Source: Lunularia cruciata
Taxonomy: Eukaryota > Streptophyta > Marchantiopsida > Lunulariales > Lunulariaceae
Direction of reading: 5' to 3'
Length of the DNA stretch: 64,000 nt
NCBI GenBank assembly: GCA_948567375.1
Contig: OX419755.1
Coordinates: 56,314,291-56,378,290 of the forward strand
Positions 4,561 through 51,550 of the stretch are shown piece after piece. Within the stretch, counting starts at the first letter, position 1; the number at the start of each line of letters is the position of its first letter. Under the pieces are notes generated by a model, which saw only the letters and a program-made list of their open reading frames with translations, had not been told where the DNA came from and searched no databases. The position numbers were made by a program, and so were the translations under genes.

Positions 4561-4630
4561 CTCTCTATATGTTCTTGTCGTTGCTGGTCTTATTCATCCA
4601 ACAATCGAGTAAGGTGCTTGATTTGTTACT

Positions 4631-5075
4631 TGTCACGCCATTTGTAGTGTTGCATCTAGATTGCTCGGACACTGGAGTTCCAATGATAGTAGTTAGAGTT
4701 ATTTTAGCAGTTTCTCAAAGACTACTTTTTGAAGGTCAGATTTCATGTTCAGGGTACTGACTTAATGGTGGGGCCCACCGTCACTTTGCACCGTTTGCAC
4801 CATCGAGTGTGCCATCAACGGGCTGTTAGGGTTTCAAACCTAGCTCGAGTCTAGGGGGTATACTTTCAAAGTGCAAATCCAGAGAGCTCACTTCTCTGAT
4901 GTTGAGCCTTTGAGTTCTCGGCTATGGTGGACAGAGGCCGGCGAGCATCACTTGGACTCTCTTAGCTAGAGTGGGTGTGGCTTGACTGTAATCAGTGCCA
5001 AGTTGTTGGCAATTTATAGAGTGACAGATCAAGTATTGATATGAGTTGAGTTGAGAGTAGTGAACAATCTGATTA
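4631..5075 (+). repeat. Element A 5' LTR, 5'-truncated
   Basis: This aligns along its length with 15869-16320. Shared landmarks are catctagattg, agtagttagagttatt, gggcccaccgtcac, ggggtatactttcaaagtgcaa and gagttgagttgagag. The first roughly 105 bases of the LTR, present in the 3' copy from about 15762, are missing here because the sequence switches to unrelated DNA at 4631. The end is set where the 3' copy ends (caatctgatta). The two copies differ by many substitutions, consistent with an old insertion. Confidence 0.8.
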
Positions 5076-5090
5076 CATCAGAGAAGTGAA
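5076..5090 (+). other. Candidate primer-binding site, element A
   Basis: Just after the inferred LTR end, tacatcagag resembles the initiator-Met tRNA primer site of many plant LTR elements (TGGTATCAGAG). The match is imperfect, and the LTR end is inferred by alignment only. Confidence 0.4.
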
Positions 5091-6583
5091 ATCAGGGGGA
5101 AATTAGGTGCATGAACTTTGAGTGTTGGTGGTATCTCCAAGCTCGGTGGATCGTTGGTAGCTTGATTGAAGTTCACTTTTTCCTTGGTGTGCAAAAGCTC
5201 GTTGCTTGATGGAGTTTTGGCAGTAAGGTAGATGGTGTGCAAAAGCGCTGGCCAATTTTTGAGCATAGAAGGAGCAAATGTTGAGTAGTGGTTGTGATTT
5301 TGAGCTCAAGAGGTGAAGGCAAGACCAATTTTTTGTGAGTTGAGCTCAGAAAGTAAAATTGAAGGTGGAGTTTGGAAGCTATTCTTGTGAATTGGTGATT
5401 TGGAGAAACTCATGTTTTCAATTTGGTTCAAGTGAAGAGTTAGTGGGGGATTTGGCGGTCAGTCAACTTTAGGGTTTACGTCAAATTTTGGCTGGATTTT
5501 ATGTAAAATTTTAGCCAGATTAGGAGGAGTTTTGTTGTTTGGCCAGATTTGGAGGAGTTTTGCCAAATTTTGGAGGAGGTTTGAAGTAGCAAGAAGAAAG
5601 GCCTCATTTGGCTGAATTTTGGCATTTAGAGGTGTAGGGTTGTGGGCTATGAGAGGCTACAAAGGCCTAGAAGGGCCAGCTTGCCAGCGTGAGGCTAGCT
5701 AGTTTAGAGTAAATCTTGGTCATTGGTTGGCAAAATCTGCCCATCCTGTTAGATTGTGCGCAATAGGGTTTGATCCCTAGATCTCTTGTTCATAGACTGA
5801 TGCCCTAGCCAATTGGTCCACCCTCACTTGTTGTCCTAGTGACTATACCACTATTATCTATACACTTGTAGCTTTGGCCAGGAGAGGCAATTTGATTCCA
5901 TTCTTGGTGATCATGGTAGATTAGGACTTAGATACAAACTTCTCTTATGTCAAATGCCAAATGGTGGCAAAGTCAGTCCCGTGTTGTTTTATGAGATGTA
6001 GGGTTTTCATTTAGATTTCTTGTGATTGGACCCCCTCCATTCTCTACTTCTTGTTTGTGCACCACGTTTGTGTGAGGTGCCTTGACTTTTGAGCGTTGGT
6101 GCTCTGGTGTGCTCTTGGTAGCAAGGTTGGAGTGATGACCACTCAGACTATCTTTGTTTCTCTGTGGTGAGGCAAGAAGTGATGACCTGCAGACCGTGAG
6201 AGTGCATGTTGTGATGGCAGGTTATAGGTTGCACTTCCCCCTAGTGTAGTTATCTCGGTTAGAGTTACATTAGTGGGTGGTGCTTAGTTGGTATTGGCAC
6301 TTGGTGGTGTTGGCACTTGGTGGAGTACTTGCGGTTGCAACTTGCAATTGCAGTTTGTGGTTCCAATTTGCGGTTGCGGTTACTTTATCACGATGGAGTT
6401 TGTTGGGGATTCTAGAGGAGTTAGCCCTGCAATACACAATGGGTTTACTTGGAGTGGTACTTGGTATCAGCCTGTATCTCAGATTCCAATGAGGAAGTAG
6501 ATTGGCTCTAAGTTTGAGTTTGACACAGGAGTTGATTCAGTTGAGAGTGCACTTGGTGTGTGTCTGCACTATTGTTGTGGAAC
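5091..6583 (+). other. Element A 5' leader, no gene seen
   Basis: About 1.5 kb lies between the primer site and the gag start. It is rich in repeated short phrases (ttggccagatttggagg, aattttggc at 5470-5640) and later in cttggtggtgttggc-type duplications (6270-6370). Small frames such as 6277-6492 are built from these repeats and match no family. It probably served as the untranslated leader and packaging region. Confidence 0.5.
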
Positions 6584-7822
6584 ATGGATGAGATTTATAG
6601 AGCCTCCAAAGGCCCTCGGTATTACTCTGGTACAGTGGGTACCATTGAGTTGGATGACTTCATCCAAGAATTTGATAGTTGGTGTGATCTGCAGCAAATG
6701 CGGAACTTGACTTTGTTTACACCTTTCATGGCATAGAAGGGGTTGTTTTAGCATCTAGAGGGTCCATTGATGGATGACTACCATGAGTTTAGGAGAGCTC
6801 ATTTGGAGGAGATCAAGTTATGGAGACAGTATTGGTCTCCGAACTATGTCTCTATCACTTCAGGTTTGGTGGCCAGGAGTAGATTGGCAGTACTTATGAG
6901 TTTGAATAGTGTTGGTGGAGGTAGTGGAGGTGCACTAGCTAGAGATAGTGTTACCATGAGTGGAGATACCGCTGCAAGAGGTGGTGTGGTACCGGGGTTT
7001 AACTCCATGGTGGAGTTCTTCTAGTGTTTGAGGCAAAACTACCAAGGAGTGCGGATTGACAAGCTGAGGAGCTTGCAGGAGTTCCAACAAAAGGCCGGAG
7101 AGAGAGTACGCAAGGCATACACTCGCATGAGGCGGCTGATCAGTTTCACTCAAGGAGTTATTGAGGCCCAGGCATTCTAGTTTTGGTATGGGATATTGGA
7201 CAAGAGTTGCAATGTAGAGTTTGTGATGCTACGTTGTTACAAGCTATTTTTCCTACTTTATCAATGGTCTTTGGTTTGGTTGAGCGTATTGAGCTCAACA
7301 TGGTGGAGGAGAGAGTGGTGACATCTAGATTTAGTAGGGAGACCTCATCCATGGTTGTGACTTCTTCTAGAGTGCACTAGAGTGCACCACGCCCAGTTGG
7401 TTTTTGAGGATAGGGTGGACAGCCTAGATCTTATGGAGCGAGTGGAGGGCCTAGTGGAGTTAGACCCTTACCTTCATTTTTGAGTCAGCAGCAGCCAGTG
7501 AGTGGTGGTATTGCTTGTTGGACTTGTGGTGGACCTCACCATTGGAGAGAGTGTACTCAGGTTAGTGGACTTGATACCTTGGATGCATCACAGCTAACAC
7601 AAAGGCAGTGTGAGCATTGCCACAGATTTGGTCACACTAGTGACCTATGTTTTGACCTACACTCGGAGTTACGGAGTGGTAGGGCTACTATGGCAGGTAG
7701 TAGAGGAGCTCTAGTTCATGGAGGACGACGTGGTAAAGGTGATGGTAGAGGATCTACACCTAGTAGGGGTACAGTACCTGCCCTTACTTCTAATACAACT
7801 AAGGCTACTCGGATTGAGTAGT
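6584..7822 (+). pseudogene. gag: Element A gag (capsid plus two zinc knuckles), broken
   Basis: The chosen start is ATG at 6584, which opens the frame holding DDFIQEFDSWCDLQQ and continues through an open stretch at 6767-7024. A capsid-like region follows (QEFQQKAGERVRKAYTRM, about 7080). Near 7190 the coding frame shifts by one, and the second part (7183-7822) contains FPTLSMVFGLVERIEL and two CCHC zinc knuckles: CWTCGGPHHWREC (about 7519-7557) and CEHCHRFGHTSDLC (about 7609-7650). A basic, Gly/Arg-rich tail follows. In-frame stops occur at about 6734, 6749, 7022 and several later points. It would coat and package element RNA; the copy cannot now make full-length protein. Confidence 0.8.
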
Positions 7823-8460
7823 TGGAGCAGAGATTGGCTAGTATGGTCATTGCTCAGAAGAGATTAGATTCGGGTGCTAAGGCTTCCACCTCGTATGTTG
7901 GTGATAGAGATGCTTTGGACTTCATGTGTAGAGCAGCATAGGTGGATGTATCTGCAACAGTGACTAGGAGTGTAGTACGTGCTCCAAAGCCTAGAGGAGC
8001 ATCAATGGAGTTGGACCCACAGAGAGGAGAGGTCGGGAGATAGGTCAAACTTCCCTAGTCTTTCACACTATCTGAGGCATTGTAGACATCCTAGTGCAGG
8101 TGTGGTAGGTGGTGATGGAGTGCATGATGGACTACCTGCTAGTCAGCTACGTACTACTACACAAACTGAGTCTAGCATGATGTTGGGAGCGGCTCAGCTG
8201 ATTATGCGGCATCTTTTGTTTTTGGCCAGTGACATGTTTATATTGGGAGTTGACCTAGCTCTAGTGTTCCTGTTGGCTGCCATGCTGTGTGAGAGTAGGG
8301 ATGATGTGATTCCTATTACTAGAGCAAAGGTGGTTGATAGTAGAGCTGACTTGGTTGAGGAGCATGAGATCCGTTCAGCGACCAGTGGTTTATGGCAAGC
8401 AACAACGGCTAGACTGGAGGAGTTGCCAGCTAGACCGGCCTTTGAGAGAGCACGGTTCAC
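7823..8460 (+). pseudogene. Element A gag-pol linker region
   Basis: The reading continues past the stop at 7820 (LEQRLASMVIAQKRLDSGAK), then changes frame to an open stretch at 7979-8674. The linker is polar and low in recognisable motifs. I see no extra domain. It probably joins the gag knuckles to the protease in the precursor polyprotein. Confidence 0.5.
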
Positions 8461-8853
8461 ACCTAGTGTTGTCCTATTGGATCACCAAAGGGTGATTTTC
8501 CATTTAGTGGGACCTTCAAGGAAGGTCTATATACCACAGAGAGTCTTGTTAGACTTTGGTGCGCAACCCCTTATGTTAGGGAAGGCTACAGTTGTCGGTC
8601 TGGAGTTACAAAAGACCAATGTGGAGAGGTGTCCATTTCAGATCCAGACATCTCTAGGTGGTAGTTCAACATAGTACATCACACGTGGGGAGCTTGTTGT
8701 CCAAGTTCAGCCTGGTCATCCAACTGATAGCTCGATGGTGAGAGCTCAGGTTATTGACAATAGCTGAGTCATATGATGTGCTAGTTGGGGGAGCCTTGTT
8801 ATACCCTATGGGTTTTAGTATTGACTATTGGGAGGAGACAACCTCCTATAGAC
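8461..8853 (+). pseudogene. pol: Element A aspartic protease, broken
   Basis: The retroviral-type protease active-site region reads RVLLDFGAQPLML, with the catalytic Asp codon at 8552-8554. The usual D-S/T-G-A is altered to D-F-G-A. Downstream are LQKTNVERCPFQIQTSLGG and, after a stop at 8672 and a frame change, YDVLVGGALLYPMGF (the conserved ILG-type flap end) in the frame that opens at 8754. The domain is therefore split over two frames. It would have cut the gag-pol polyprotein. It lies directly upstream of the methyltransferase domain in the same frame. Confidence 0.75.
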
Positions 8854-9755
8854 CAAGTTGGCAGTCTGGTGAGGGATGGGTATGTCGCCTACCAATATGC
8901 TTTAGTAGTGGTAGTCTTGGCTCACTGCAGTCTAGGACCATGGCAACATCAGTTTTAGCTTTCAATGGTGCAATTACTTGGCCTAGTGACTTGTTGGAGG
9001 GGAATGCCCATGTAGAAGATACTCTAGTACCAGAGGAGGTCACTCAGATTTGGGGACGAGTGGGATTGTTCCATCCACCTTGGATGTTCCATTGTGGAGT
9101 TCAGAAGAGGCGTTACAACAACATGCAAATCTACTGGTGCAGCAAGGTTGGAGTTGAGCCTTTGTACCATCAAGAGATGAGTGGGAGGCCTCCAGAGTCG
9201 ATTACTTTGACACCTTTGGATACCACACTCATTGCTTGGCAGTATCCAATAGAGGGGATATGTCTATTGAAGTTGTTTGGTGGGATTAGCTCCGGACTAG
9301 TTGCGGTATTACAAGCGGGTACACAAGTACAGAGGTACTTATATGTAGAGAGAGATGAGATTGCTAGGCAAGTCTCTCTACATCATGTGGCACACTTGGC
9401 CTATCGGTATCCGGAGTTATTACCAATGTCAGCAGTCAAAGGTTACCAGAAGGCCCTACCAACAAACATTTCCTTATTGAGGGTGCATGATCTGGAGAGA
9501 TATGGGCCTATTCACTTGGTGATTTTTGGATGGCCATGTCAGGGACATACACGTGCTAGTAGAGGTTTGGGTCTTCAGGATCCTTGTTCTGGTGTGTTTT
9601 GGGAGATGTTACAGATACTACAACATCTCCAAGTTCATCAATCCATTTCTCTAGCTTACCTTTTGAAGAATGTTCCTTTGATGGGTGATTCTCGCACTAG
9701 AGTGGTGGCGAGTACACATCAAGTCCATTCTTGGATAGGACCTACTATACGTTAG
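8754..9755 (+). pseudogene. pol: Element A pol: protease end fused to DNA methyltransferase N-terminal half
   Basis: A 333-codon open stretch carries the end of the protease (residues 5-25), a spacer with YWEETTSYRPSW, and from residue 169 the catalytic half of a cytosine-5 methyltransferase. Motif I (S-adenosylmethionine binding) is LLKLFGGISSGLVAVLQAG, followed by YLYVERDEIAR (motif II-like acidic residue). Motif IV is LVIFGWPCQGHTRASRGLG, with the catalytic Pro-Cys-Gln codons at 9534-9542. Motif VI is LLKNVP, where the invariant Glu (ENV) has become Lys at 9666-9668. The layout of motifs I, IV and VI resembles DNMT3/DRM-type domains more than DNMT1. No RT or integrase motif lies in this stretch. 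Confidence 0.88.
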
Positions 9756-10226
9756 ATGCAGCTAGAGTGGGATCACGGGCTCATCATCTTTGTCTTTGGT
9801 GGATGAACCTCTTACCCAGAGAGGTTCTATAGCGTGCTTATGATGGGATTCAACGACTTGACCATATCCTTGTTGAGAATATCTTGGATGTTAGGCATCA
9901 GTCTCAGACAGTGGTAGTGGCTGATAGGTCACCTATGGAAGTGGTGAACCAAGTTGGATAGCCTAGAGCTGCATTTCCCACACTCATGAGTTTCCCAAGC
10001 TCTCATGCTTTCTGAGAGGGAGGACCTGGACTTGTTTGGGACTCACAATTACAACAATTGGTGGAGCCCAATGCTGATGAGAGAGAGAGAGTGGGTGATG
10101 GTTTTTTGCATTGGTATTACTGCTATTCTAGTAGTGTCAAAGGCATCTAGGCATCAGGTGTTAGGTCAGGCTATGGACCTAAACTGTTTGACGTGGATTG
10201 TGAGCCTTGGCTTGGCAGAGCAGCGT
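9258..10226 (+). pseudogene. Cytosine-5 DNA methyltransferase domain (DNMT3-like) within element A pol
   Basis: The domain would transfer a methyl group from S-adenosylmethionine to cytosine C5 in DNA. Motifs appear in the usual order over about 320 codons. Motif I (9258), catalytic PCQ (9534) and KNVP (9663) lie in the first frame. After a frameshift before 9746 comes motif VIII (DAARVGSRAHHLCLWWMNLLP), which mirrors the DNMT3 phrase with H-R-A-R-Y-F-W-G-N-L. Then FPTLMSFPSSHAF (about 9970) follows. After a second slip in the gagagaga run near 10080 comes motif X (ASRHQVLGQAMDLN, 10146 onward). Stops lie at about 9830, 9958 and 10012. The Cys is kept but the ENV Glu is lost, so this copy is inactive. 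Confidence 0.87.
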
Positions 10227-10590
10227 AAGATGCACTTGATAGGCATCACCAGTTGGACACTTGTGAGCCTTGTGCCTATTGAGATGATTCAAGAACATGC
10301 TGGAGGTGATAGACCAAGTGAGCATGGGATTCTTGGGACACAACCAATAGTTACTAGGGAGAGTGGTCTACTTAGAGTCCATCCAGGTGAGCGTGGGCTA
10401 CTTGGACTACACCCTTGGTCCACTTGGGATGCAGCTAGAGGACGTGTGGAGCTTGCAGCCAGAGTGGAGAGAGTTTTTCACATAGAGGTTGGGACCTCTA
10501 ATGTTTGGGAGCATGCCACTATTGCTCCCAAGGGCCTAGTGTAGTAGCCAATCAGTACGTCTTCCACTCCTACTATAGTTATAGAGGATA
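10227..10590 (+). pseudogene. Element A linker between methyltransferase and RT
   Basis: This continues the open frame of 10005-10544. It has a repetitive Gly/Leu/His-rich segment in which ESGLLRVHPGERGLLGLHP shows an internal duplication. No domain is recognised. It ends with TAG TAG at 10542-10547, and the RT N-terminal region then begins. Confidence 0.5.
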
Positions 10591-11640
10591 CTTGGAAGCC
10601 AAATCTTGGACCCAAGCTTACTGGAGAGGAAAGACGGACGGTTTGGAGGTTCTTCGGGAGCCACACGAGTTGTTTTGCCTTTAGTATGAAGGATTTGGGT
10701 GCTTTGAAGGGACATGGTATACGGATTGAGCTGACTAGCAATAAACCAATTTTCTGACATCCTTATCAATATAGTGAGATGGAGAAGACATTGATTTAGA
10801 GCTAGAGTAGTGACCTTTTTGATGCTGGTTTGGTGGAGATTTCACATAAAGAGTATGCATCAGCGATAGTGTGCCAGCCAAGAAGGATATGCATGGCAAC
10901 TACACAAATAGGTGGATGTGTGGAGATTACCGTACTATCAACCAACAGACCAGGGCTGATCGGTATGCCATGCCTACAACGGAGGAAATTTTTGATGCGA
11001 TTGGGCATGCAAAGGTCTTCAGTACTTTGGATCTTTGAGCGGGATATCATCAATTGCTAATCAAAGAGGAGGATAAGTCCAAGACATCATTTTGGGCTAT
11101 TGATCCTCACGGCAAGGATGTGTTATATTAGTGGAGGTTCTTACCGTTTGGGTTAAAGAACGCTCTTGCTGAGTTCCAGAGGGTCATGGATAGGATCCTA
11201 GCTGGATTGGATTTTGCTTGGTGCTATATTGATGACATTTTGGTCTATACCACTACTGTGGAGGAGCATGAGAGACAGTTGTTGGAGGTGTTTGAGAGGT
11301 TGAGATCTCATGGACTTGAATAACATCTTGGGAAATGTAAATTCTTCTATGAGCAGGTTGAGTATTTGGGTCACATTATCTACCCCGGAGGACTTGGTGT
11401 TTAGCAAACCAAGGTAGGGGCTATTGCACATATTTCTTGGCCTACGGATGTGAGTAGAGTGCAAGCATTCCTTGGTTTGGCAAACTTCTATCACCGCTAT
11501 GTTAGAGGATTTAGCACCATTGCCAAGGCCTTGACAAAGCTGAACAAGCTTACACATGAGCGGTGTTGGGTAGATGAGTAAGAGAGAGCTTTTGTAGAGC
11601 TTAAGGAGAGGTTGACATCTGCTCCTATTTTGAGGAGACA
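10591..11640 (+). pseudogene. pol: Element A reverse transcriptase, broken
   Basis: The RT begins with LTGEERRTVWRFF and HPYQYSEMEKTLI. After frame changes it has MCGDYRTINQQTRADRYAMP (about 10918), FSTLDL followed by a stop in place of Arg, then AGYHQLLIKEEDKSKTSFW, LPFGLKN and the catalytic YIDD at 11225-11236. YLGHII, FLGLANFYHRYVRGFS and the start of the connection region follow. Stops at about 11038, 11321, 11402 and 11579 are mostly single-base changes from Arg, Gln or Trp codons. The catalytic Asp pair is intact, but the protein cannot be made in full. Confidence 0.88.
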
Positions 11641-12040
11641 GATCACAAGCGATGATTTCAGGTTCATACTGATTGGAGTATGTTGTGGCTTGGAGCGGTG
11701 CTCAATCAACATAATGATGAGGGGAAGGAGTTTGTGGTGGCCTATGCTAGTTGCTCCAACAATTCAGCGGAGGCAAAGTATAGTTCATATGAGGGAGAGT
11801 GCTTGGTAGCAATTTGGGCAATAGCACATTTCCAATGTTACCTATTTGGTAACCCCTTCACTCTCATCGCTGATCATCAGCCATTGAAGTAGTTGATGGA
11901 GTCCAACAAGCTTTCAAGGAAGCTTGCATGATGGGCTCTGATTTTACAAGAGTATCATTTCACAATTGTTCACAGACCTAGAGTGGTGAACCGTGATGCA
12001 GATGGGTTGAGTAGAAACCCATGTCTCAACCAGCAAGATC
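11641..12040 (+). pseudogene. pol: Element A RNase H, broken
   Basis: The RNase H acidic residues sit in VHTDWS (about 11667), YEGECLVAIWA (about 11790), LIADHQPLK (11866) and NRDADGLSR (about 11990), the standard Ty3 arrangement. Two stops (after HQPLK at 11890 and before WALILQEY at 11929) interrupt it. It would remove RNA from the RNA-DNA hybrid during reverse transcription. It continues directly from RT and leads into the integrase. Confidence 0.85.
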
Positions 12041-12453
12041 GGACCGGAACACGTTGGCATGGTAAGATAGATGAGGAGATGGTGCCAGGTTGGCATGCAT
12101 TGGCCTTTCGGTGTATGTTTTCAAAGGCTTTGGTGGTATCTCTCTCAGTGCATACAAGAGGAGTTATTGAGTTCATAGATCCAAAGAGTGAAGATATTGG
12201 TACAATTCAGCGAGACATTCATGATGATGTCTTAGTGATGGACTATCTTTGCACTGGTGTTGTGGGTGGCACAGTTAGGGCCAAGGAGAGAGACCGTGTT
12301 CTTCAACAAGCCAAACGGTTCAGATTGGAGGGCAGACACCTTTTGCGTGTATGGGAGGATGGTAGAGTGCAAGTAGTACCACTTTCATCTAAGAGACCAC
12401 AGTTGGTCCATCATGCTCATGAGGAGCTAGGACATTTTGGAGTAAAGCATACA
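12041..12453 (+). pseudogene. pol: Element A integrase, N-terminal part (before nested LTR)
   Basis: The open stretch 11983-12495 covers a polar linker and then the integrase zinc-binding start: RFRLEGRHLLRVWEDGR and HHAHEELGHFGVKHT. The His pair of the HHCC finger is visible. The coding then runs into the inserted LTR at 12454, so the last nine or so codons of the open frame belong to the insertion. The rest of the finger resumes at 14423 with YSLLQSHYWWHNM. Confidence 0.82.
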
Positions 12454-14427
12454 TGTGACAACTTGGCAAATATCACTTTTGTGGTAATCGGGTAAGTAAA
12501 GTTTTTCCCCGTAGAGATACTATGCAGAAATGTCCAAATACGAAGTCAAAAGTCACAATCGTAGTTCTTCTTGGTTGCTTCTTTAATCTCTCAGGTAGAA
12601 ACTACACCCAAAAGAGAGTAACAAGCTCACAATCTTGACAACTTGTCACAAATACACACACATAATCACATCATAGCAAATTCTGTCCAAACAACTCTTG
12701 ATTGTTATGATTTAGATTCTCCCAAAGACGACACTTCACTACAAAGAACAATTTTGCCTCAGAATTGTGTTCCACCCCTCCACTAAAGGCACAACTTCCT
12801 CGATCAAAATTGCTTCACATCAACTTTGTGCTGCACTCACAAATGCAGAATACAACCAACACTACAATTCCTCTCAGATCTGTCAAGGCATTGCTCCGAT
12901 GCACTTCACTCAAGATCAAACACATAGAATGAAGATCAAGGCTACAGAGTCCAACATCCACAGACACACTGACTTGCTCTTCGGAATTCTCCACACACTC
13001 ACAACTACAAACACAAAATTGACAATCGGAATTAAGCTTAAGCGACAAGCAATGAGAATAGCACTTCGCTTTATCTATCTTCACAAATATGAATAGTGAA
13101 TATTATTGTAATGCAAATGCTCCCTTTAAATACTAAAGCAAACAGCAGTTCTTCCTACATATGCACCGCTTCCTAACATCTTTTCCTACATGCAGATCCA
13201 ACTTGACAATCCATCTCTTCATATCTACCTTTTCCTATCTCGAAATATCTCAATCTATACTTATCCCAATCCAATGTCTACCTCATCATCGGTTTTCAAA
13301 CCCGATGATCTTCCTACTACTTCTCCTTCTTCGGGTATATCTAATTCTACTAATTCTTGCACTAATTCTACTACTTCTACACTAGGAACTACAATTGCAC
13401 TAAAGAGTGACTTATCTAACTCTTTATCTCCTAACCCAATCTTCTCTAATGTCTCAAATAATAAGTCCAATGACACATGGATTCCTACATCTGCAACATT
13501 GGGTCTAATTACAATCCATTCCTTTGCTAATTCTACTATATCCTCATCACAAATTGTAATTGAAAGCATGGGTACACTATCTACGCCTTCAATTTGTAAC
13601 CCACGTTCCCATAATCTCTCATGTTATTGACCCGAAGACCCGTATAGTCTGATCTTGCACTTCGGGTTTATTCAGTACTGCTATTTCTCCTTCAATTCTT
13701 GTTCCATCTTCAATCGGAATTGAAATTGAAGTCATGGGTATCCTAACTATCTATTCTTTCTCTATCCTAACTCTCTCGAATGCCTCTGGCAAGATTCTAG
13801 AAGTCATCTTCATTGCACTCCAAGGTCCGACTATCTCAGATACAGTCATCTTCGTCTTGAGGCAAAGAAGCTTCTAACCCGAAGTGGTGTAAACCTGAAG
13901 TCCGAAGTCCAAAGTCCAAAGTCCAAAGTCCGATCTCTTAAGTCCAAAGTCCAAAGACTAAAGTCTCAAGTCCAAAATCCAAAGACCGAAGTCTCAAGTC
14001 CAAAGTCCGAAGACCAAAGTCTCAAGTCCAAAGTCCGAAGGCACTAAACTACTTTGTAAATTTACTCCCAAAACTTCAAATACTTATAACTTCTTCTAGA
14101 AACCTCCAAACTTTGCGATTTTGGTGGCAACGGAAAGCCCTTAACAAGACGCCTTCAACGAGATATAGCACGCTTGATTTGGACTTGTAGACATTGAGAT
14201 ATAGCCCCCACAAGAATCTCGACCTGTAACTTCCATTCCTCCTTTGGGTATGCTCTATTTCAATCTTGGTTGAGTCCATCTTCATCTGACACAAAGTCTA
14301 CTTCTTTGGGCTTGATCAAAATACAAATTTCCTCTCACTTCTTCTCCATTTGGTTTCAATTTGGTTTCAGCAAGGCACTTCTTCTTCAAAACTTGTCCAA
14401 AATGAAAAATGTGGGTACCACAATACA
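12449..14427 (-). mobile_element. Solo LTR of the B/C/E superfamily inserted in element A integrase
   Basis: The minus-strand LTR spans 12454-14422 and is flanked by a 5-bp target duplication ATACA (12449-12453 and 14423-14427). On the plus strand it begins tgtgacaacttggcaaatat and ends gggtaccaca, the reverse complement of the TGTGGT...TTGTCACA ends of the 3.8-kb LTRs at 24446, 38176 and 47710. At 1,969 bp it is about half their length: most of the LTR-borne ORF is missing and only its C-terminal part remains (about 13263-13569, minus). Joining the flanks restores integrase reading, so it is a clean solo LTR left by LTR-LTR recombination. Confidence 0.9.
13893..14045 (-). repeat. Short-period tandem repeat inside the solo LTR
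   Basis: About 150 bases consist of variants of aagtccaaagtcc, with a larger rhythm of about 28 bases (aagaccaaagtctcaagtcc). The full-length relatives have only a few scattered copies of aaagt/actttggg at the matching end of the LTR, so the array expanded in this copy or subfamily. Confidence 0.75.
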
Positions 14428-15290
14428 TATAGCTTACTCCAGAGTCACTATTGGTGGCACAATATGCAGACCAAGGTACAGTAATTTGTTGCCAGATGTT
14501 TGGTTTCTGACCAAGTTAGAGCATCATTCAATGCACCTACACCACAGTTACATCTCTTACCTATCATGGGATTGGGTTACTGTTGGAGTTTGGACTTTGC
14601 TAGACCTTTACCGCTGACTGTGAGATTTCATCGGTATGTTTTGGTGATGGTGGAGTACTTCTCCAAGTGGATTGAGTTGGTAGCACTTCTTTACAAGTCT
14701 AGTGAAGGGAAAACTTACTTGTTCATGGATTGAGTTCTTAGTCATTTTGGTGCACCAGTTGAGGTTTTGACTGATTAGGGATAAAGTTCTTGGGGGAGTT
14801 TCAAGTCTTGTGTGACATGGCTTTGATTGATCATCGTACTACATCCCGAGATCCCCTTGAGGTAGATGGCTTAGTCAAGAGAGTGGTTCAGATGGTGAAG
14901 AGAGGATTACAAAAGTATGGTTTGCAGAGAGGCCACTTGGGAGATTAGGATCTCCAGTTACCTTGGTTGGCCATGGGCTATCGGTTCAGCTAGCAAGCCT
15001 CCTTAGCATCCTTCTCTCCGTACTTTCTATTTGTTAAACAAGATCCAAATTGACCTGCAGCTATTTGTTGAGATGTTATTGTAGTTTTGGACTTGGATGA
15101 CCCCAATGTATGGATGAGCGCATGTGCTCAACGGGCAGAGATCTTTTGGAGAGTGATGCCGATGGCCTTTGAGAACTTGGTGATTGCTCAACATAGAGAT
15201 ACTTTATGCTATGCTACCATTTGAGGAGGAGGTTATAGACCCTTGATCCATCAATTTCATCCAAGAGATTATGTATATCTATAGCAAACA
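14423..15290 (+). pseudogene. pol: Element A integrase, catalytic core and C-terminal part
   Basis: After the nested LTR the translation resumes with HYWWHNM, then DQVRASFNAPTPQLH. The catalytic core follows: LDFARPLPLTVRFHRYVLVMVEYFSKWIELV (first Asp near 14598), then LTD (second Asp, about 14769) and DGLVKRVVQMVKRGLQKYGL, where the catalytic Glu of the usual D-G-L-A-E-R is Lys. PWLAMGYRFS and ENLVIAQHRDTL lead to the C-terminal part. Many stops and frame changes occur (14732, 14778, 14946 and others). It would have joined element DNA to the chromosome. The adjacent downstream frame holds the PHD finger. Confidence 0.85.
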
Positions 15291-15296
15291 ACACCA

Positions 15297-15626
15297 ATGA
15301 CACTTGATGTTTTGACAGGCTGCACTATCTTGAGAGTGCATGAGGTTTTACCATATGGAGTCCTTGTGTTAGAAGGACGTGATGGTGTTGATTGGAAGGA
15401 TCATGTGCACAATTGTGCACCATGTCACCTCCCAAACATTGATGGTAATATGGACCCAAGCTTGGCACTTGTACGTGCAGGCTTGAGGTGTATGTTATGC
15501 GGCTATTCTGGTAGAGCTGCTACTATGTTAGTGTGTGATAGTTGTTCAAGAGGATGGCATATGGCATGTATGACTCCCCTCACGGTGGTTCCTCAAGGAT
15601 AGTGGTTATGTCCTAGATGTACTTGA
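15297..15626 (+). pseudogene. pol: Element A pol C-terminus with PHD finger
   Basis: A 101-codon open stretch begins with the end of the integrase C-terminal region (TLDVLTGCTILRVHEVLP, an SH3-like barrel remnant). Then comes a C4-H-C3 zinc finger: Cys65-x2-Cys68-x11-Cys80-x2-Cys83-x4-His88-x2-Cys91-x13-Cys-x2-Cys (15489-15620). WHMAC and W-L-C-P-R-C are hallmark PHD phrases. A TAG at 15600-15602, most simply a changed Gln codon, falls just before WLCPRC. PHD fingers typically read histone H3 tails. Here it sits where chromoviruses carry a chromodomain, so a role in choosing integration sites is a fair inference. Confidence 0.85.
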
Positions 15627-15744
15627 CCTATTGCTAGTTCATTCTTTATATGGTATAGATTGCAGACAGGCAACTAACGATGGGGCTCCATAGCACCCGA
15701 CTTCCTGATCTTTGCCCATTATCTGGAGTTAGAGGGACCTAACT

Positions 15745-15761
15745 GCCAACTAGGGGGCAAT
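15745..15761 (+). other. Element A polypurine tract
   Basis: The purine-rich run taggggg followed by caatt lies just before the 3' LTR start. This is where plus-strand DNA synthesis would be primed. The exact LTR border is inferred. Confidence 0.5.
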
Positions 15762-16320
15762 TATGGCACTTTAGAGTCTATGTATGACTTATGTGTGAGT
15801 TGTGCTTCTATAGTGTATGATGTTGACAACAATGTATGTTGTGTAGTGATGTATATACACACGACAATTGTCACGCTATTTCTAGTGTCACATCTAGATT
15901 GTTTGGACATGGGAGTTCTAGTGATAGTAGTTAGAGTTATTTCAGCAGTTTCTCAAAGACTACTTTCTGACAGTCAGATTTTGTGTTCAGGGTACTTACT
16001 TCACGGTGAGGCCCACCGTCACTTTGCAAAGTTTGCACCGTCAAGTGTGCCATCAGCGGGACCATTAGGGTTTCAGACCTAGCTTGAGTCCAGGGGGTAT
16101 ACTTTCAAAGTGCAACTCTAGAGAGCTCACTTCTTTGATGTTGAGCCTTCAAGTTCTTGGCTATGGTGGACAGAGGCCAGCAAGCGTCTATTGGATTCTC
16201 TTAGCTAGAGTGGATGTGGCTTGACTATTATCAGTGCCCAATTGTTGGCAGTTTATAGAGTGACAGATCGAGTATTGATTTGAGTTGAGTTGAGTTGAGA
16301 GTGGTAAACAATCTGATTAT
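15762..16320 (+). repeat. Element A 3' LTR
   Basis: About 559 bp. From 15869 it aligns with the 5' LTR at 4631. Its first 107 bases (tatggcactttagagtctatg onward) are absent from the truncated 5' copy but recur directly after it at 16321, which fixes the LTR start. It ends near caatctgatta. Frames inside it (for example 15780-16082) are incidental. Confidence 0.72.
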
Positions 16321-16425
16321 TATGGCACTTTAGAGTCTATGTATGACTTATGTGTGAGTTGTGCTTCTATAGTATATGATGTTGACAACAATGTATGTTG
16401 TGTAGTAATGTATATACGCACAACA
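16321..16425 (+). repeat. Head of a second, tandem element A LTR
   Basis: This stretch repeats 15762-15866 almost exactly (tatggcactttagagtctat..., gatgttgacaacaatgtatg). It begins where the first LTR ends and stops at about 16425, where unrelated sequence starts. It is best read as a truncated tandem LTR or the start of a second element. Confidence 0.7.
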
Positions 16426-16737
16426 TATTTCATCACAAGGATAATGTCCAGTATTGCCGCCATAGCTACTACTCTATCCCACTACTCCCAATTTATCTAA
16501 TTTATTAACATATAGATGTAGCATGTCCACCATTCTCCATAAGTTACAATAGGAAGTATCAAGGGTTCCTTAGACAAGGTAATCAAATGCAAAAAATTCT
16601 ACCCAAAGCGCGAGGTGATGAATTGTGTGAAATGATGCTTGGGTAATATTTGGACATGAAAATCCCAATGGTTTGCAGAAGCGGATTTGGTGATCCATAA
16701 ATTCCATCCATCCCATTCCTACTCTGAGACCAATATA
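16426..16737. other. Unassigned sequence
   Basis: No gene or repeat match is seen inside the window. It lies between the truncated element A LTR and the family F LTR piece, and may include the U5 side of that LTR. Confidence 0.3.
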
Positions 16738-24445: not shown

Positions 24446-24831
24446 TGTGGTGTCCACATTTTTTGTTTTTCTCAAAATAAAGGAGAAGAAGTGTATATAG
24501 AAGTTGAATTGCGCCTGTATGGCCAAAGAAGGCGAAGGAAAGAGTCTTCGGGATGAAACCCAAAGTAAAGTAACTTTGGGTCATATGGCGAAGTACTCGG
24601 AAATGCCCTGTCAGCATACAACCCAAAGTAAATTGTCTTTGTATCGGGGGGAGCTCAACCCGAGGCAAAGACAGTCTAACAACCTTTCGTCAGGGTGAGA
24701 AATTCAAGAAGGAGCCGTTTTAAAACTAGCGGCCCGTATGCGCAAAGGTTGATTGACAGTGACAGGTGCATGCTAGAGGTGTGATTTCTCGGTAGAAACT
24801 CGAAGCAACGAAAGACAAAGAAGCGCAACTC

Positions 24832-24839
24832 TATAAAAA
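24832..24839 (+). promoter_or_regulatory. TATA box upstream of LTR-borne ORF
   Basis: tataaaaa lies 27 bases before the ATG at 24859. The same motif precedes the ATG in the 3' LTR (38562-38568 before 38588) and in element E's LTR (48155-48161 before 48189). The short spacing means transcripts would begin close to or just past the first ATG, so a downstream Met might be used. Confidence 0.5.
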
Positions 24840-24858
24840 TCAAACTTGCAACGACAAA

Positions 24859-27424
24859 ATGTCAAGTAATTTTCCTTTGCTGCTGAGAAGTCGTCTTGCA
24901 GGTGATCGGGGAAAGGGAAATAGAGTTGGGATTGTGTTAGTGCGCAAGGGCGAAGTCACGAGAGTGAAATCAAGAGAAAGTGAGAAAGTAGAAGAGATGG
25001 GAGGAGGGAAGAAGAACTCCAAATTTGCAATGAGAAATTATGCGATTTGGAGGTTAGATGTGATAGCAAGGATCAAAGTCTTGAGCCGACTTTGGATCAC
25101 CTTTCTGGCATGGAACTGGAATGTAAGTTTTCCAGGACTCATGACATAAATCATCGAGAGTAAGTGTCTCGATGGACCCGAGGAAGAGGAGAAGAGAGGA
25201 AATCCGGCTTGCTGGATAGAGTCAGATTGGAGACTTGTACTTGGGAAGGAAGCAGGCTTGGAGCAGGGAGCCACGTTCTTGGGAGAGGGAGAGATAGCTC
25301 AAGAGACTCAGGAGGTGAGGGATGCCTTCTTGTCAAAATGGACAAACAATGGGTACAAGGTTGAGAGCTACAAAGACCCTGTGAAGAGAGGGATCGTGAG
25401 TGCTTTGATGGCTATCTTGAAGCCAGAGAGAACCACTTATGTGATGAAACACCAAGCGGTGTTCTTCCATAAGTTGTTTGCAGGAGAACCAATCAATTGG
25501 GTGAGGTGTTTTCACGAGAGAACGAGGTAGATGGTGTGGAATTTGCGGGGATAAGTCGCCTCCACACTACATTGTGCCGTTTGCAGCACACTTCTACCTT
25601 GGGCTCAACTTGCTGAACTCGGCGGAGCGGACTCGGATGGTGTCGCATTTCCATCCGGATGTTTGAAAGGAGGTCAATGTCAAGGAGCAGCAGTACATCT
25701 TGCAACTCAGGAGCACCAACGACTACTACGCAAAGACAAGGAAGAACATGGAGGTCGCAGTAAGTACCCCGACAAAGAAGAGAGGTCGGCAAGGTGAAGC
25801 CGAGGAAAGCAAGAAACCTCGGAAGATGCAAAGAAGTAACCCAAGGTGATGTATGGTGGTGATTGAGTCGGAGGATGAAGACTCAGAAGGAAATGCCAAG
25901 CTCAAAACTGAAGACTCGGAACACAAGGAGGAGCCTGAGCTAACGTTGCAGAGTGGAGGTACGAGTAGCGATAGTGATGAAGGTGGAGAGATGACATTGG
26001 CGCCAGTGGCTGAAGAATACAAAGAAGAAGTGCAAGCCAAGTTAGAAGCCAAAGACAACACGCAGTTGGAAGACGAAGTAACTGTGCCAGAGGAGAAGAA
26101 AATTGCAGTACAGCGAGGAGTTTGCTCGAGACGTAAGGCAAAGTGTGATGCGGGGCCGAGTAAAGTAAAAGAAGAGGTAAGTGAAAACTCGGGAAGTGAG
26201 GCGTCAATTCCAATACAAAGACTACAGAGAAGAAGGCGAGTATCGGGAGAACACAAAGTGAGAAGAGAGACCACTCCACGGGAGGAAGTAGTTGCAAGTG
26301 ATGGAGTGAATTACCTGCGAGAGATCGTGTGCCCATTGTTGGTGAAGTTGGAGCACAAGAAGAAGGAGATGCAGTTGACTTGTCCAGAGGTAAAGATTGT
26401 ATTGCAAGTGTTGGCAAGATTAGAAGAAGAGAACTCGGAGTTGAAGAAGAGTGTAACCCGAGGTGAGGAGGAAAGGGAAGTACTGCAATCGGAGGCAATA
26501 GAGAGAAGTCAGGTAATTGAAGACCTGAAGAGAGAAGTGAGCTATTGAGAGGAGCTTGTGAAGAAAAGTGACATAGCAAGGGAGAAACAAGTAGCGGAGT
26601 ATGAAATCTTGAAGCAATAGTTTCTTGATTCGAGAGTAGAAGTAATCCATGCTATGGCGAGAGTAGCAGCAAAGGATCAAGAGCTCGATAGAGTGATGGA
26701 GAGTATGGAAGAGAAGAAATAACTCTGGTAACGAGAGTTGGCGGCGCCATACAGAGAAGAAGAGCGATTACGAGAATTACTTCGTAATCAGGAGGAGAAG
26801 GTAGTTCAGAAGGAGAAGGAGAAGGAGACGGTGAAAGCCGGATTCGAGGAAGAGTTGGCGATGTACCGAGAGGACTGGCTTGCAGATCGGGAACAAGAAA
26901 GGAAGACAAGATTGGAGCCGATAAAGGAAATTGTCCTCCAGATGAATGCAATGTTGAGTACAGAGGCCAGTGTGCGGATTGAAGAAGCAAGACTGCACAA
27001 GTTGAAGTTGTTGGCGCAAGAGACGAGGCAAAGACAGGCGAAAGACACCGAGATGAACGCCTTGTTGATCAAATTAAGAACTTGTGTAGATAAGAAGATA
27101 TTAGGGGTAGAAGATAACATTTCAATTAGATTAGACTTAGTGAAAATAGAGCTAGAAAAACTTTGGAAAGATGTTGAAGCAAAACCCAAAGTAGATAACA
27201 TAGGAGTCCAAATGTCTTTGGAGTTACTAGTGGAGACATTAGAGAAGAGTGGGTCGGGAGATAAGGAGTTAGATAGATTACCCACTAGTGGAATTTCAGA
27301 TCAAGAAAGAGAATTGCTGGATCTGGTAGAAGAAGTAGGAGATCTGAAACCCAAGGAAAAAGTGATAGGAAGTAAAATTACTTTGGGTTTGGATTTGAAA
27401 GCCGAGGACAAAGTAGACATCTGA
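24859..27424 (+). pseudogene. LTR-borne coiled-coil protein ORF, copy in B 5' LTR
   Basis: About 850 codons read with a few frame slips and stops. N-terminal region: MSSNFPL, ARIKVLSRLWITFLAWNW, YKDPVKRGIVSALMAILKP and HQAVFFHKLFAGEPINW. The middle (25853 on) is acidic and Ser-rich (VIESEDEDSEG), with RRKAKCDAGPSK. The C-terminal half is a long predicted coiled coil (EERE, KEKEKETVKAGFEEELAMY, RLDLVKIELEKLWKDVEA), ending in AEDKVDI at 27421. It is not gag, pol or an envelope that I recognise: no signal peptide or transmembrane segment is seen. It occurs in every long LTR of this superfamily in the window, including diverged ones, which suggests a real accessory protein. Function unknown. Confidence 0.72.
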
Positions 27425-28226
27425 TCGGATTAGTAACCAATTTGAGATTTGAAGGGGCACATATGAAGAGGTGCATTGTTATTTCGGATCTGTAGGTTAG
27501 AACAATTGTTGTAGAACGGTATAGTTGTTAGAATTGTCTATTGCTTCACTACTTAAGAGTGGCATTCACAGGAAATTGTTGTTCAGTGCTCATAATTTTT
27601 GAGAATAGATAAAGTGAAGTGCTGTGAAGCAGTGCTCGTTGCTTGAGCTTGATTCTGAGTATCAACTTTGTGATTGTGTTTGTGAGTGTTTGGAGAAATT
27701 CAAAGTGCAAGTCAGAGTGCTTGTTGGATGTTGGATTCCACAGCCTTGATCTTCATTCTGTGTGTTTGATCTTGAGTGAAGTGCAATCAAAGCAATGCCT
27801 TGACAGATCTGAGAGGAATTGTAGTGTTGGTAGTATTCTGCATTTGTGAGTGCAATGCAAGGTTGATGTGAAGCAATTTTGATCAAGGAAGTTGTGCCTT
27901 CAGTGGAGGGGTGGAACACAATTCTGAGGCGAAGTCGTTTTGCAGTGAAGTGCCGTTTTAGGGAGGGCCTGAATCATCACAATCAAGATTGTTTGGAAAG
28001 ATTTGATGGAGTTGTGATTAAGGAGTGTGAATTTGTGACAAGACTGCGAATCAGTGCTTGTTACTCTCTTCTGGGTGTGGTTTCTACCTGAGAGACTAAA
28101 GAAGAACTCAAGAAGAAATAAATTGTTACTTTGACTTTGTATTTGGACATTTTTGACTCGTATCTTTGCGGGAACAAACTTTACTTACCCGATTACTGCA
28201 AAAGTGATATTTGCCGGGTTGTCACA

Positions 28227-32500: not shown

Positions 32501-35500
32501 TGTGACAACCCGGCAAATATCACTTTTGCGGTAATCGGGTAAGTAAAGTTCATTCCCGCAGAGATACGAGTCAGAATTGGTCAAATACAAAGCAAAGTAA
32601 CAATTTCAGTTCTTCTTGGTTGTGTCTTTAATCTCTCAGGAAGAAACCACACCCAGAAGAGAGTAACAAGCACTAACTCGCAGTCTTGTCACGAATTAAC
32701 ACTCCTTAATCACAAATCCTTCAATTCTTTCCAAACAATCTTGATTGTGATGATTCAGGCTCTCCCGAAAACGGCACTTCACTACAAAACAACTTTGCCT
32801 CAGAATTGTGTTCTACCCTTCGTTGAAGGCACAACTTCCTTGATCGAAATTGCTTCACATCAACTTTGCACTGCACTCACAAATGCAGAATACTACCAAC
32901 ACTACAATTCCTCTCAGATCTGTCAAGGCATTGCTTAGATTGCACTTCACTCAAGATCAAACACACAGAATGAAGATCAAGGCTATGGAATCCAACATCC
33001 AACAAACACTCTGACTTGCACTTCAAATTTCTTCACACACTCACAAACATAGACAAAAAGTTGATACTTGAAATCAAGCTCAAACGACGAGCACTGCTTC
33101 AAAGCACTTTGCTTTATCTATTCTCAGAAATAATGAGCACTGAACAACAATTCTCTGCGAATGCCACTCTTAAGTAGTGAAGCAATTGACAGTTTTAACA
33201 ACTATACCGTTCTACAAAAATTGTTCTAATCTGCAGATCCAAAATGACAATGCACCTCTTCATATCTGCCTCTTCAAATGTCAAATCTGTTACTAATCCG
33301 ATCCGATGTCTACTTTCTCTTCGGCTTTCAAACCCGAACCCGAAGTAAATTTACTTCCTAATATTCTGTCCTTGGGTTTCATAATTCCTACTTCCTCTAC
33401 TAGATCTAACAATTCTCTTTCTTGATCTGAAATATCACCAATGGGTAATCTATCTAACTCCTTATCTCACGACCCACTCTTCTCTAATGTCTCTGATGGT
33501 AACTCGAAAGACATTTGGACTCCTATGTTATCTACTTCGGGTTTTGCTTCAACATCTTTCTGAAGTTTTTCTAGCTCTATTTTCACTAAGTCTAATCTAA
33601 TTGAAATGTTATCCTCTACCTCTAATATCTTCCTATCTACACGAGTTCTCAATTTGATCAGCAAGGCGTTCATCTTGGTGTCTTTTGCTTGTCTTTGCCT
33701 TGTCTCCTGCACCAACAACTTTAACTCGTGCAGGCGTGCTTCTTCAATTCGAACGCTGGCTTTTGTACTTAACATCGCATTCATCTGGAGGACAATTTCC
33801 TTTATCTGCTCCAATTGTGTCTTCCTTTCTCGTTCCCGATCTGCAAGCCATTCCTCTCTGTACATCGCCAATTCTTCCTCGAATTTGGCCTTCACCGTCT
33901 CCTTCTCCTTCTCCTTCTGAACTACTTTCTCCTCCTAATTACAAAGTAATTCTTGCAATCGGTCTTCTTCTCTATACCTTGTAGCCAACTCTCTTTGCCA
34001 GAGTTGCTTCTTCTCCTCCATACTCTCCATCACTCTATCGAGTTCTTGATCTTTCGCTGCTACCCTTGCCATAGCATGGATAAGTTCTACTCTTGAATCA
34101 ACAAACTGCTGCTTCAAGATTTCGTATTCAGCTACCTGTCTTTCCCTTGCTATGTCACTCTTCCTCGCAAGATCCTCTCGATAGCTTACTTCCCTCTTCA
34201 GGTCTTCAATTACCTAACTTCTCTCTACTGCCTCCGCTCGCAGTACTTCTCTCTCCTCCTCACCTTGGGTTATACCTCTCTTAAACTCCAAGTTCTCCTC
34301 TTTTAATTTTGATAAGACTTGCAAAACAGTCTTCACCTCTGGACAAATCGACTGCATCTCCTTCTTCTTGTACTCCAACTTCACCAACAAGGGGCACACT
34401 ATCTCTCGCAGGTACTCCACTCCATCATTGGCAACTACTTCCTCCTGCGGAGTGGTCTCTCTTCTCACTTCGTGTTCTCCCGATACTTGCCTTCTTCTCT
34501 GGAGTCTTTGTATCGGAATCGACGCCTCACTGCCCGAGCTTTCTTCTACCTCTTCCTTCCCTCTACTTGGCCCCGCTTCACACTTTGCCTTACGTCGCGA
34601 GCAAACTCCTCGCTGTACTGCAATCTTCTTCTCCTCTTGTACCGGTACTTCGTCCTCCAGCGCTGTGTTGTCTTTGGCTTCCAACTCGGCTTGCACTTCT
34701 TTGTATTCTTCAGCAGCTGGCGCCGAAGTCATCTCTCCTCCTTCTTCACCATCACTGCTCGTATCTCCGCTCTATAGTGTCAGCTTAGGTTCCTCTTCAT
34801 GATCCGAGTCCTCCGTTTTGAGCTCGGCCTTGCCTTCTGAGTCTTCATCTTCTGACTCAATTACCACCATTCCTCGCCTTGGGTTACTTCTCTACATCTT
34901 CCGAGGTTTCTTGCTTTCTTCGGCTTCTCCTTACCGACTCCTCTTCTTTGTTGGGGTACTCACTACGACCTCCACATTCTTCCTTGTCTTTGCGTAGTAG
35001 TCGTCCGTGCTCTAGATTTGGAGAATGTATTGCTGCTCCTTGACATCGACCTCCTTTCGCACATTTGAATGGAAATGCGACACCATCCGAGTCCGCTCCA
35101 CCGAGTTTAGCAAATTTAGCCCGAGGTAGAAGTGTGCTACAAACGACACAATGTAGTGTGGAGGCGACTTATCCCACAAATTCCACACCTTCTGCCTTGT
35201 TCTCCCGTGAAAACACCTTGCCCAATTGATTGGTTCTCCTGCAAACAACTTATGGAAGAACACCGCTTGGTGTCTCATCACATAAGTCGTTCTCTCCGGC
35301 TTCAAGATCGCCATGAGAGCACTCACAATCCCTCTCCTCACTGGATCCTTGTAACTCTCAACTTTGTACCCATTCTTTGTTCTTTTCGACGAGAAGGCAT
35401 CTCTCACCTCCTGAGTCTCTTGGGCTATCTCTCCTTTCCCCAGGAACGTGGCTCCCTGCTCCAAGCTTGCCTCCTTCCCGAGTACAAGTCTCCAATCCGA

Positions 35501-50733: not shown

Positions 50734-51525
50734 TAGAATTGAGATTTGAAGAAGTAGATATGAAGAGGTGCATTTACATTTTGGATCTACAGGTTAGAAG
50801 AGTTGTTGTAGAATGGTATTTTTGTTAGAACTATCGTTTGCTTTAGTATTTAAGAGGAGCATTTGCAGTCATATGTTGTTCAATGCTCATTATTTCTGAG
50901 AATAGATAAAGCAAAGTGCTGTGAAACAATGCTTGTCGCTTGAGCTTGATTCCGAGTATCAACTTTGTGTTTGTGTTTGTGAGTGTGTAGAGAATTTCAA
51001 AGTGCAAGTTAGTGTGCTTGTTGGATGTTGGATTCTACAGCCTTGATCTTCATTCTGTGTGTTTGATCTTGAGTGAAGTGCAATTGAAGCAATGCCTTGA
51101 CAGATCTGAGAAGAATTGTGGTGTTGGTAGTATTTTGCATTTATGAGTGCAACGCAATGTTGATATGAAGCAATTTTGATCAAGGAAGTTGTGCCTTCAG
51201 TGGAAGGGTGGAACACAATTCTGAGGCGAAGTCATTTTACAATGAAGTGCCATTTTTGGGAGAGCTTGAATCATCACAATCAAGATTGTTTGGAAAGATT
51301 TGATGGAGTTGTGATTAAGAAGTGTTAATTTGTGACAAGACTACGAATCAGTGCTTGTTACTCTCTTTTGGGTGTACTTTCTACCTGAGAGATTAAAGAC
51401 ACAACCAAGAAGAACTACGTTGTTACTGTTTGACTTTGTATTTAGACATTTCTGACTTGTATCTCTATGGGAATGAACTTTACTTACCTGATTACCGCAA
51501 AAGTGATATTTGCCAGGTTGTCACA

Positions 51526-51550
51526 TGATTTTTGGCACCGCTGCCGGAAA
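51526..51550 (+). other. Element E primer-binding site
   Basis: tgatttttggcaccgctgccgg follows the LTR end directly. It is the closest of the three copies here to the plant tggcgccgttgccgg aspartate-tRNA-type site. Confidence 0.65.

Follow-up and report, generated by a model that had tools for sequence, protein, structure and literature searches.

We analysed a 64,000-nucleotide stretch of the liverwort Lunularia cruciata genome (assembly GCA_948567375.1, contig OX419755.1, positions 56,314,291 to 56,378,290; hereafter the window), which contains a decayed Ty3/gypsy retrotransposon, here called element A. This element extends from 4,631 to 16,425 on the + strand, is interrupted at about 12,447-14,423 by another insertion, and encodes, in this order, Gag with CCHC knuckles, a protease (PR), a cytosine-5 (C5) methyltransferase (MTase), a reverse transcriptase (RT), RNase H and an integrase. 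Its anatomy and the class of its MTase are almost certain: it is the dead representative of a young land-plant Ty3/gypsy family bearing a DNMT3-type de novo C5 MTase. Comparisons were made with other copies in the same genome (sister copies) and with relatives elsewhere, among them the Marchantia sequences P0138, P0140 and P0099, the proteins P0047 and P0083, and L003 (CADCWO010000201.1), a 9,285-base environmental contig holding a complete MTase retroelement. The features of the window copy are the following.

4627-4630, no strand: left target-site duplication TACT; the right one is TATT, a single mismatch, and the duplication is an exact 4 bp in 9/9 sister copies with readable ends.
4631-5075, + strand: repeat A1, starting TGTCACGC; 87% identical to A2, with the same left border in 9/9 sister copies.
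6584-8080, + strand: gag region, decayed and frame-shifted, found by tblastn with residues 1-490 of P0138; two CCHC-like knuckles at about 7,519-7,659 (by eye) and an open reading frame (ORF) at 7,414-7,821.
8500-8830, + strand: aspartic protease region, decayed, collinear with P0047 and P0083 (the latter above the PF13650 cut-off); LLDFGA here, LLDSGA or LLDTGA in relatives.
9186-10226, + strand: DNMT3-type C5 methyltransferase, motifs I to X in three frame pieces, with motif VI Glu replaced by Lys; recognised by motifs, homologues, collinearity and the fold prediction of a relative.
10542-10550, + strand: stop at the border of the Gag and Pol sides; the next codon is also a stop, followed by CCA.
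10587-12123, + strand: reverse transcriptase and RNase H, decayed (PF00078 1.7e-12, PF17917 1.7e-22; 44-57% to L003 by tblastn).
12226-12446, + strand: N-terminal part of the integrase, H2C2 finger (PF17921 9e-4, below cut-off; 46% to L003).
12447-14423, - strand: a different repeat, nested within the integrase, its borders placed to about 5 bases; absent in the three sister copies compared.
14424-15392, + strand: integrase core (DDE type) and C-terminal region (tblastn 68% to P0099, through to the PHD finger, and 58-59% to L003; PF00665 0.065).
15489-15623, + strand: C-terminal PHD finger with one in-frame stop inside (PF00628 4.9e-6, above cut-off, match 15,489-15,578).
15750-15759, + strand: polypurine-tract-like CTAGGGGGCA preceding B1; a similar tract precedes B in sister copies and L003.
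15761-15866, + strand: repeat B1, 106 bp, 96% identical to B2.
15867-15868, no strand: two-base spacer of the B1/A2 junction, palindrome GACA-AT-TGTC.
15869-16319, + strand: repeat A2, 87% identical to A1.
16320-16425, + strand: repeat B2, ending ACAACA at the right end of the element; paired with B1, borders as in sister copies.
16426-16429, no strand: right target-site duplication TATT, against TACT on the left.

The window copy is dead, carrying in-frame stops, frameshifts and a Lys in place of the catalytic Glu. Fifty in-frame stops fall where relatives' alignments cover the element; eight are opposite gaps and were excluded, and 25 of the 42 others stand opposite Gln, Arg or Trp. The observed/expected CpG ratio is 0.295 in 4,629-12,450 versus 0.403 in the window to the right of element A. 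Both observations would fit decay at methylated cytosines.

A sequence-only reading of the window had described a full set of C5 MTase motifs between protease and RT. The motifs are all present on the + strand: motif I starts at 9,267, the Cys codon of GWPCQG (motif IV) is at 9,537-9,539, the Lys codon of KNVP (motif VI) at 9,666-9,668, WWMNL (motif VIII) at 9,797-9,811 in a shifted frame, and LGQAMDLN (motif X) at 10,161-10,184. As a functional set they are incomplete, given the Lys in motif VI and the broken frame. Motifs I, IV and VI, together with the end of the protease, lie in a first open piece (8,742-9,755); beyond it the frame shifts, motif VIII and what comes after it lie in another frame, and motif X is back in the first frame, before 10,541. 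Relatives are collinear with the window domain through three frame pieces (8,751-9,749, 9,752-10,213 and 10,083-10,337), and because they align across exactly these pieces, the broken frame stems from decay within a single domain, not from a mosaic arisen by chance. The catalytic Cys of motif IV is retained in the window copy; the motif VI Lys faces a Glu in 49/49 aligned sister copies. Both Cys and Glu are kept in all 49 and are invariant across the 13 sequences of alignment A4.

Compared alone with Pfam, the window piece reaches PF00145 with an E-value of 0.016, below the cut-off. Its homologues comprise 46 proteins at E ≤ 0.01 (best 7e-82), which rules out chance motif matches, and individual relatives match PF00145 with E-values down to 1.5e-13. 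A profile of 20 relatives searched against PDB gave DNMT3A at the top (E 4e-11), with DNMT2 at 0.0019. The homologues and the PDB profile make the assignment to the C5 MTases certain, and the refuting condition named in the sequence-only reading, lack of a significant profile match, fails. The element enzyme is closest to DNMT3 both by profile and by the predicted fold of a relative (predicted local distance difference test score 86.7 with 47 diverse sequences; a first job at 49.7 was set aside). All five motifs occur in the canonical order I-IV-VI-VIII-X in 19/167 relatives, and the order in the window is identical. Plant DNMT3 and DRM host genes share the C5 MTase motifs with the element but are separate loci, and the DRM motif order is rearranged, unlike that of the element enzyme. 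An origin from DRM is ruled out by this order, since the element runs unrearranged from I to X whereas the host DRM-like genes have the ENV block before motif I.

The source genome (565.8 Mb in 74 contigs) was searched with the MTase piece. Of 16,570 first-look candidates 119 were scored and all 119 matched, the window copy included, so that the copy number is known only as a lower bound of at least 119 matches. The other refuting condition of the sequence-only reading, absence of the domain from all sister copies, fails as well, the matches being genome-wide. Among the matches listed, the next best to the window copy is 79% identical and the others 75-77%, with open frames of up to 1,432 amino acids. 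The window copy apart, 118 matches remained, of which we sampled 50. Ten copies were fetched in two stretches each, nine picked for long open frames, a choice that favours young copies, and one, C6, as the nearest to the window copy; 40 further MTase stretches were picked in list order, passing over some rows and following no set rule. The 40 stretches and the nine copies were aligned, C6 and the window copy being set apart. Mean pairwise identity among these 49 copies is 96%, the lowest being 69% (at least one copy aligns badly and was retained), and the window copy stands at 90%. The intact sister copies that the sequence-only reading had proposed to look for were found in part: the first frame, gag-PR-MTase, is open over 1,428-1,432 codons in four of the ten fetched copies, and none of nine is stop-free through both parts.

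The relatives' proteins, the order in the window and the genome-wide matches thus support the reading of a DNMT3-like MTase fixed in a land-plant Ty3/gypsy element, between its protease and its RT, and the proposed extension of the Klebsormidium case to land plants is borne out.

In the sister family the first frame codes for Gag-protease-MTase up to UAG-CAG-YYA, and RT-RNase H-integrase-PHD comes after it in the same frame. UAG-CAG was found in 47/49 aligned sister copies, followed by CCA (42), UCA (3) or CUA (2); the two remaining copies have AAG-CAG-CCA and UGA-GUG-AGA. In L003 the gag-PR-MTase frame ends in UAG-CAA-UCA, and RT-RNase H-integrase-PHD goes on in the same frame. The 47 sister copies fit UAG-CAR-YYA, which we take to be the tobamovirus-type readthrough signal, and readthrough at this UAG is very probable from the sequence context. 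In these frames the MTase coding sequence precedes the conserved UAG and belongs to the Gag-PR side, not simply to Pol. Protease and MTase are joined in a single predicted protein in several relatives, among them P0083, where both PF13650 and PF00145 exceed their cut-offs, and P0138 aligns from gag through MTase; the Marchantia gene model P0140 holds MTase, RT and RNase H. Twenty-eight of 30 relatives with motif X end at most 163 residues past it, although some of them may reflect contig ends or search length limits; the two that extend further are gene models taken from annotated genomes. The position of the MTase on the Gag side of UAG-CAR-YYA suggests readthrough and a product made at Gag level.

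Ordinary long terminal repeats (LTRs) at both ends were not found in element A; it has split repeats instead: A1 stands at its left end, and its right end is made up of B1-A2-B2 (A copies 446-452 bp, 87% identical; B copies 106 bp, 96% identical). The same A-coding-B-A-B layout is present in 9/10 fetched sister copies, with A pairs 96.4-99.3% identical; among these nine, one A pair extends over no more than 319 bp, and the match of one B pair is 79 bp long. All nine copies with readable ends start with TGTC, end with GACA and lie between exact 4-bp duplications, each of which would arise by chance about once in 256; these are TG...CA ends with a short target duplication, which in the window has one mismatch. 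The polypurine tract is 106-107 bp away from the B-A junction in the window and equally so in the distant L003; the L003 junction is also palindromic (GACA-GC-TGTC). Because B starts after the polypurine tract, the tract-bounded repeat reads B-A, but the inserted molecule has A on the left and B on the right. Split repeats served by a DDE integrase are a puzzle of retroelement replication.

The integrase is of the DDE type (PF00665 1.2e-13 in L003), and the tyrosine recombinase characteristic of DIRS elements was not found, PF00665 and the 4-bp duplications standing in its place. L003 is above cut-off for PF00078, PF17917, PF17921 and PF00665 and below it for PF13650, and the Ty3/gypsy order gag, PR, RT, RNase H, DDE integrase is recovered from the window pieces, L003 and P0083 together. 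The PHD finger matches PF00628 in L003 (4.3e-10) and Marchantia P0099 (4.4e-9) as in the window, and was found by tblastn in 9/9 sister copies and not in C6. Among proteins of known structure, its relatives in sequence include DPF3, KMT2C, KMT2D, KAT6A and the plant ATXR5 finger, several of which read unmodified H3K4. No chromodomain was found at the integrase C-terminus of L003 at E ≤ 0.01, the PHD finger being there. Chromoviruses are Ty3/gypsy elements with a chromodomain, the order PR-RT-RH-IN and a chromatin reader at the integrase C-terminus. Element A shares this order and has a reader module at the same place; unlike them, it has a PHD finger in place of the chromodomain, with the MTase and the split repeats added.

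Two precedents, KnitGypsy-Dnmt3 of Klebsormidium nitens and SymbioDIRS-Dnmt3 of Symbiodinium, were described by de Mendoza et al. in 2018 (PMC5890265), the text and figure legends of which are the basis of our comparison. The K. nitens element has Gypsy domains and repeats given as 'the same as that of a DIRS retrotransposon', DIRS being A-coding-B-A-B, which we take to be the layout of element A. By those legends, element A resembles KnitGypsy-Dnmt3 in its Gypsy domains, in a DNMT3-type MTase within the coding region without the DRM rearrangement, and in the A-coding-B-A-B layout. The hosts here, unlike K. nitens, are land plants, and the paper places the MTase in the Pol ORF, whereas here it lies on the Gag side, upstream of the UAG. 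SymbioDIRS-Dnmt3 likewise combines a DNMT3-type MTase, in the ORF of its RT, with A-B-A-B repeats, but it has a tyrosine recombinase where element A has a DDE integrase and 4-bp duplications. The text of PMC5890265 does not mention PHD, readthrough or target site, and in this text-only comparison such features may be shared.

Among the matches listed in the open-access PMC literature, judged by title and start of abstract, there was no land-plant MTase element (subscription papers and preprints lay outside this scope); the word methyltransferase does not occur in the searchable text of PMC6317226, and the passages of PMC6338049 on the topic hold nothing on land-plant MTase elements. The published cases found are algal (a charophyte and a dinoflagellate), and here the setting is a land-plant genome with many matches and young insertions. 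Beyond the sequence-only reading, the present comparison points to a Gag-side MTase with UAG-CAR-YYA, an integrase PHD finger, and split repeats with 4-bp duplications.

The explanation that we favour, with a probability of roughly 0.55, is that the Gag-side MTase methylates the element's own complementary DNA (cDNA) and that the insertion arrives already marked. Most translation would stop at the UAG and yield Gag-PR-MTase, making the MTase a stoichiometric part of the virus-like particle, and rare readthrough would add RT, integrase and PHD. Inside the particle or on exit from it, the MTase would methylate fresh double-stranded cDNA at CG and perhaps other sites. The integrase would then join the TGTC/GACA ends; a circle may be an intermediate, with the conserved palindrome as its B-A junction, and the integrase would be tethered to histone H3 tails by its PHD finger. 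Since the cDNA would be methylated before insertion, the new copy would arrive with the methyl mark of silent host DNA. Gag-side position and PHD finger both point to the particle and the integration step, and the element seems built to write the same mark that plants use for transposon silencing. Taken by itself, cDNA as the natural substrate is a tentative proposal that falls somewhat short of even odds; we would nevertheless rank it first over the roles suggested from the window alone, namely marking of own copies, silencing of rivals and non-lethal silencing. More speculative, and rather unlikely in its entirety, is a liverwort and moss lineage with a writer-reader pair, in which a Gag-stoichiometric DNMT3-type writer would methylate cDNA within the particle, the PHD finger on the integrase would steer insertion through the histone H3 tail, and DDE integration would proceed from a palindrome-opened circle. 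If so, insertions would be born pre-silenced, leading to host tolerance and very high copy number. Marchantia polymorpha is a model plant with genetics and methylome data, and relatives there make the question of 2018, why a transposon carries a methyltransferase, directly testable.

Several observations weigh against this explanation. In C6, the nearest copy to that of the window, the repeat layout and the PHD finger were both not seen, and the absence of a stop-free frame through both parts in the nine sister copies belongs here too. In the window copy B1/B2 are less diverged (4/106) than A1/A2 (52/446; p 0.012), for which gene conversion over a short distance is our guess. The best match to a tRNA primer-binding site was no better than in shuffled sequences (453/2,000 as good). 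KnitGypsy-Dnmt3 gave no methylation in yeast, a result that its authors call inconclusive; activity in yeast was demonstrated for SymbioDIRS-Dnmt3 (PMC5890265, text). Among young copies the MTase is under weak selection that does not exceed that on the spacer before it: nonsynonymous/synonymous variants present in at least three copies number 39/33 in the MTase (plus four shared stops) and 20/19 in the spacer, for neutral expectations of 2.37 and 2.44, and single-copy variants 115/70 and 47/20, in a test that is itself weak, many of the differences being private decay. Over longer times, fourfold-degenerate sites between a sister copy and L003 are saturated (0.286 identical, 0.266 expected), and amino-acid identity is 49% in the MTase, 20% in the spacer, 43% in the protease and 33% in gag; the 49% kept at such saturation indicates that the MTase has long been under purifying selection. 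RT and RNase H are more conserved than the MTase, as L003 and Marchantia share 63% and 74% identity there (P0140) versus 46-48% in the MTase (P0138).

Among the alternatives, the one that survives best, though improbable, is that the MTase acts in trans on the host genome, on rival elements, host loci or the element's own integrated copies; in the last case the host would bear a lower cost. In its favour, enzymes of the DNMT3 class write methylation de novo, the many matching genome pieces (16,570 first-look candidates, 119 scored) could supply dosage, and such effects are discussed for Symbiodinium by de Mendoza et al. (PMC5890265). Against it, K. nitens, which carries such elements, has a land-plant-like methylome in the same paper, and an enzyme bound in the particle on the Gag side would probably reach chromatin to a limited extent. 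We consider it still less probable that the domain owes its retention to nucleic-acid binding or to methylation of RNA inside the particle, and not to DNA methylation. Encoding on the Gag side near the CCHC knuckles would suit such a role, as would the inactivity of the KnitGypsy-Dnmt3 domain on yeast DNA in the account of PMC5890265, but the catalytic Cys and Glu stand in 49/49 sister copies and throughout the 13 sequences of A4, and the PDB profile prefers DNMT3A to DNMT2 by the E-values given above.

That the A-B-A-B ends are an accident of truncation or of tandem LTRs in an ordinary LTR element is very improbable. The window holds a single copy, its A and B pairs are unequal in divergence and the layout was not seen in C6, yet nine of ten fetched copies share it with exact 4-bp duplications at the same borders, which rules out a truncation artefact, and a similar layout is reported for K. 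nitens in PMC5890265. Least probable of all, to the point of being negligible, is that an exon of a host DNMT or DRM was picked up by chance close to a retroelement: the sequence is indeed DNMT3-type, but the 17 element MTases form one clade (100/100), which contradicts chance capture, gag-PR-MTase is one open frame in sister copies and relatives, and the host's DNMT3 and two DRM-like genes lie elsewhere and are 29-41% identical to the element enzymes over 50-143 residues.

In a first tree the window MTase falls inside a 17-row clade (100/99) with liverwort and moss elements. The second tree also included the host DNMT3, the two DRM-like genes and five other enzymes; it recovered the single clade of element MTases apart from these, and the placement of host DNMT3 and DRM was unsupported (141 columns). 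Among the homologues listed, none bore the name of K. nitens. The host DNMT3, identified by PDB search, is at C7:31.99 Mb, separate from the element; DRM-like genes with rearranged motif order at C1:48.27 Mb and C6:13.14 Mb and a CMT-like fragment at C8:50.01 Mb were all recognised by eye. Having DRM, DNMT3 and such elements together would suit a bryophyte genome. Six environmental proteins (P0065, P0109, P0052, P0071, P0088 and P0024) are more distant MTases, some with a protease-like stretch, and branch outside the other element groups (support 80/55). In a PF00145 search of the genome, most of the 123 rows had the profile range typical of the element enzyme, judged by range only. In viral contigs two and a further six MTase loci were seen, with 28-45% identity along short stretches; P0140 as query gave no match there. 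The L003 entry is labelled a metagenome-assembled genome of a Synechococcales cyanobacterium despite its eukaryotic-type element, which we read as contamination; its first and last 127 bases are identical, as either a circular molecule or an assembly loop would produce.

Elsewhere in the window, gypsy-type RT places at 31.6, 36.3 and 55 kb gave no match to the MTase or to the PHD finger, and Rfam and tRNA scans of the window gave no match. The first kilobase of the nested insert at 12447-14423, on the opposite strand, has matches of 73-80% at 50,479-51,527, at 57,901-58,942 and at further sites in the window. A 3.8-kb repeat is present in three copies (24446-28225, 32501-36279 and 38176-41939; 94% identical in direct and 88-89% in inverted orientation), which lie within other nested retroelements.
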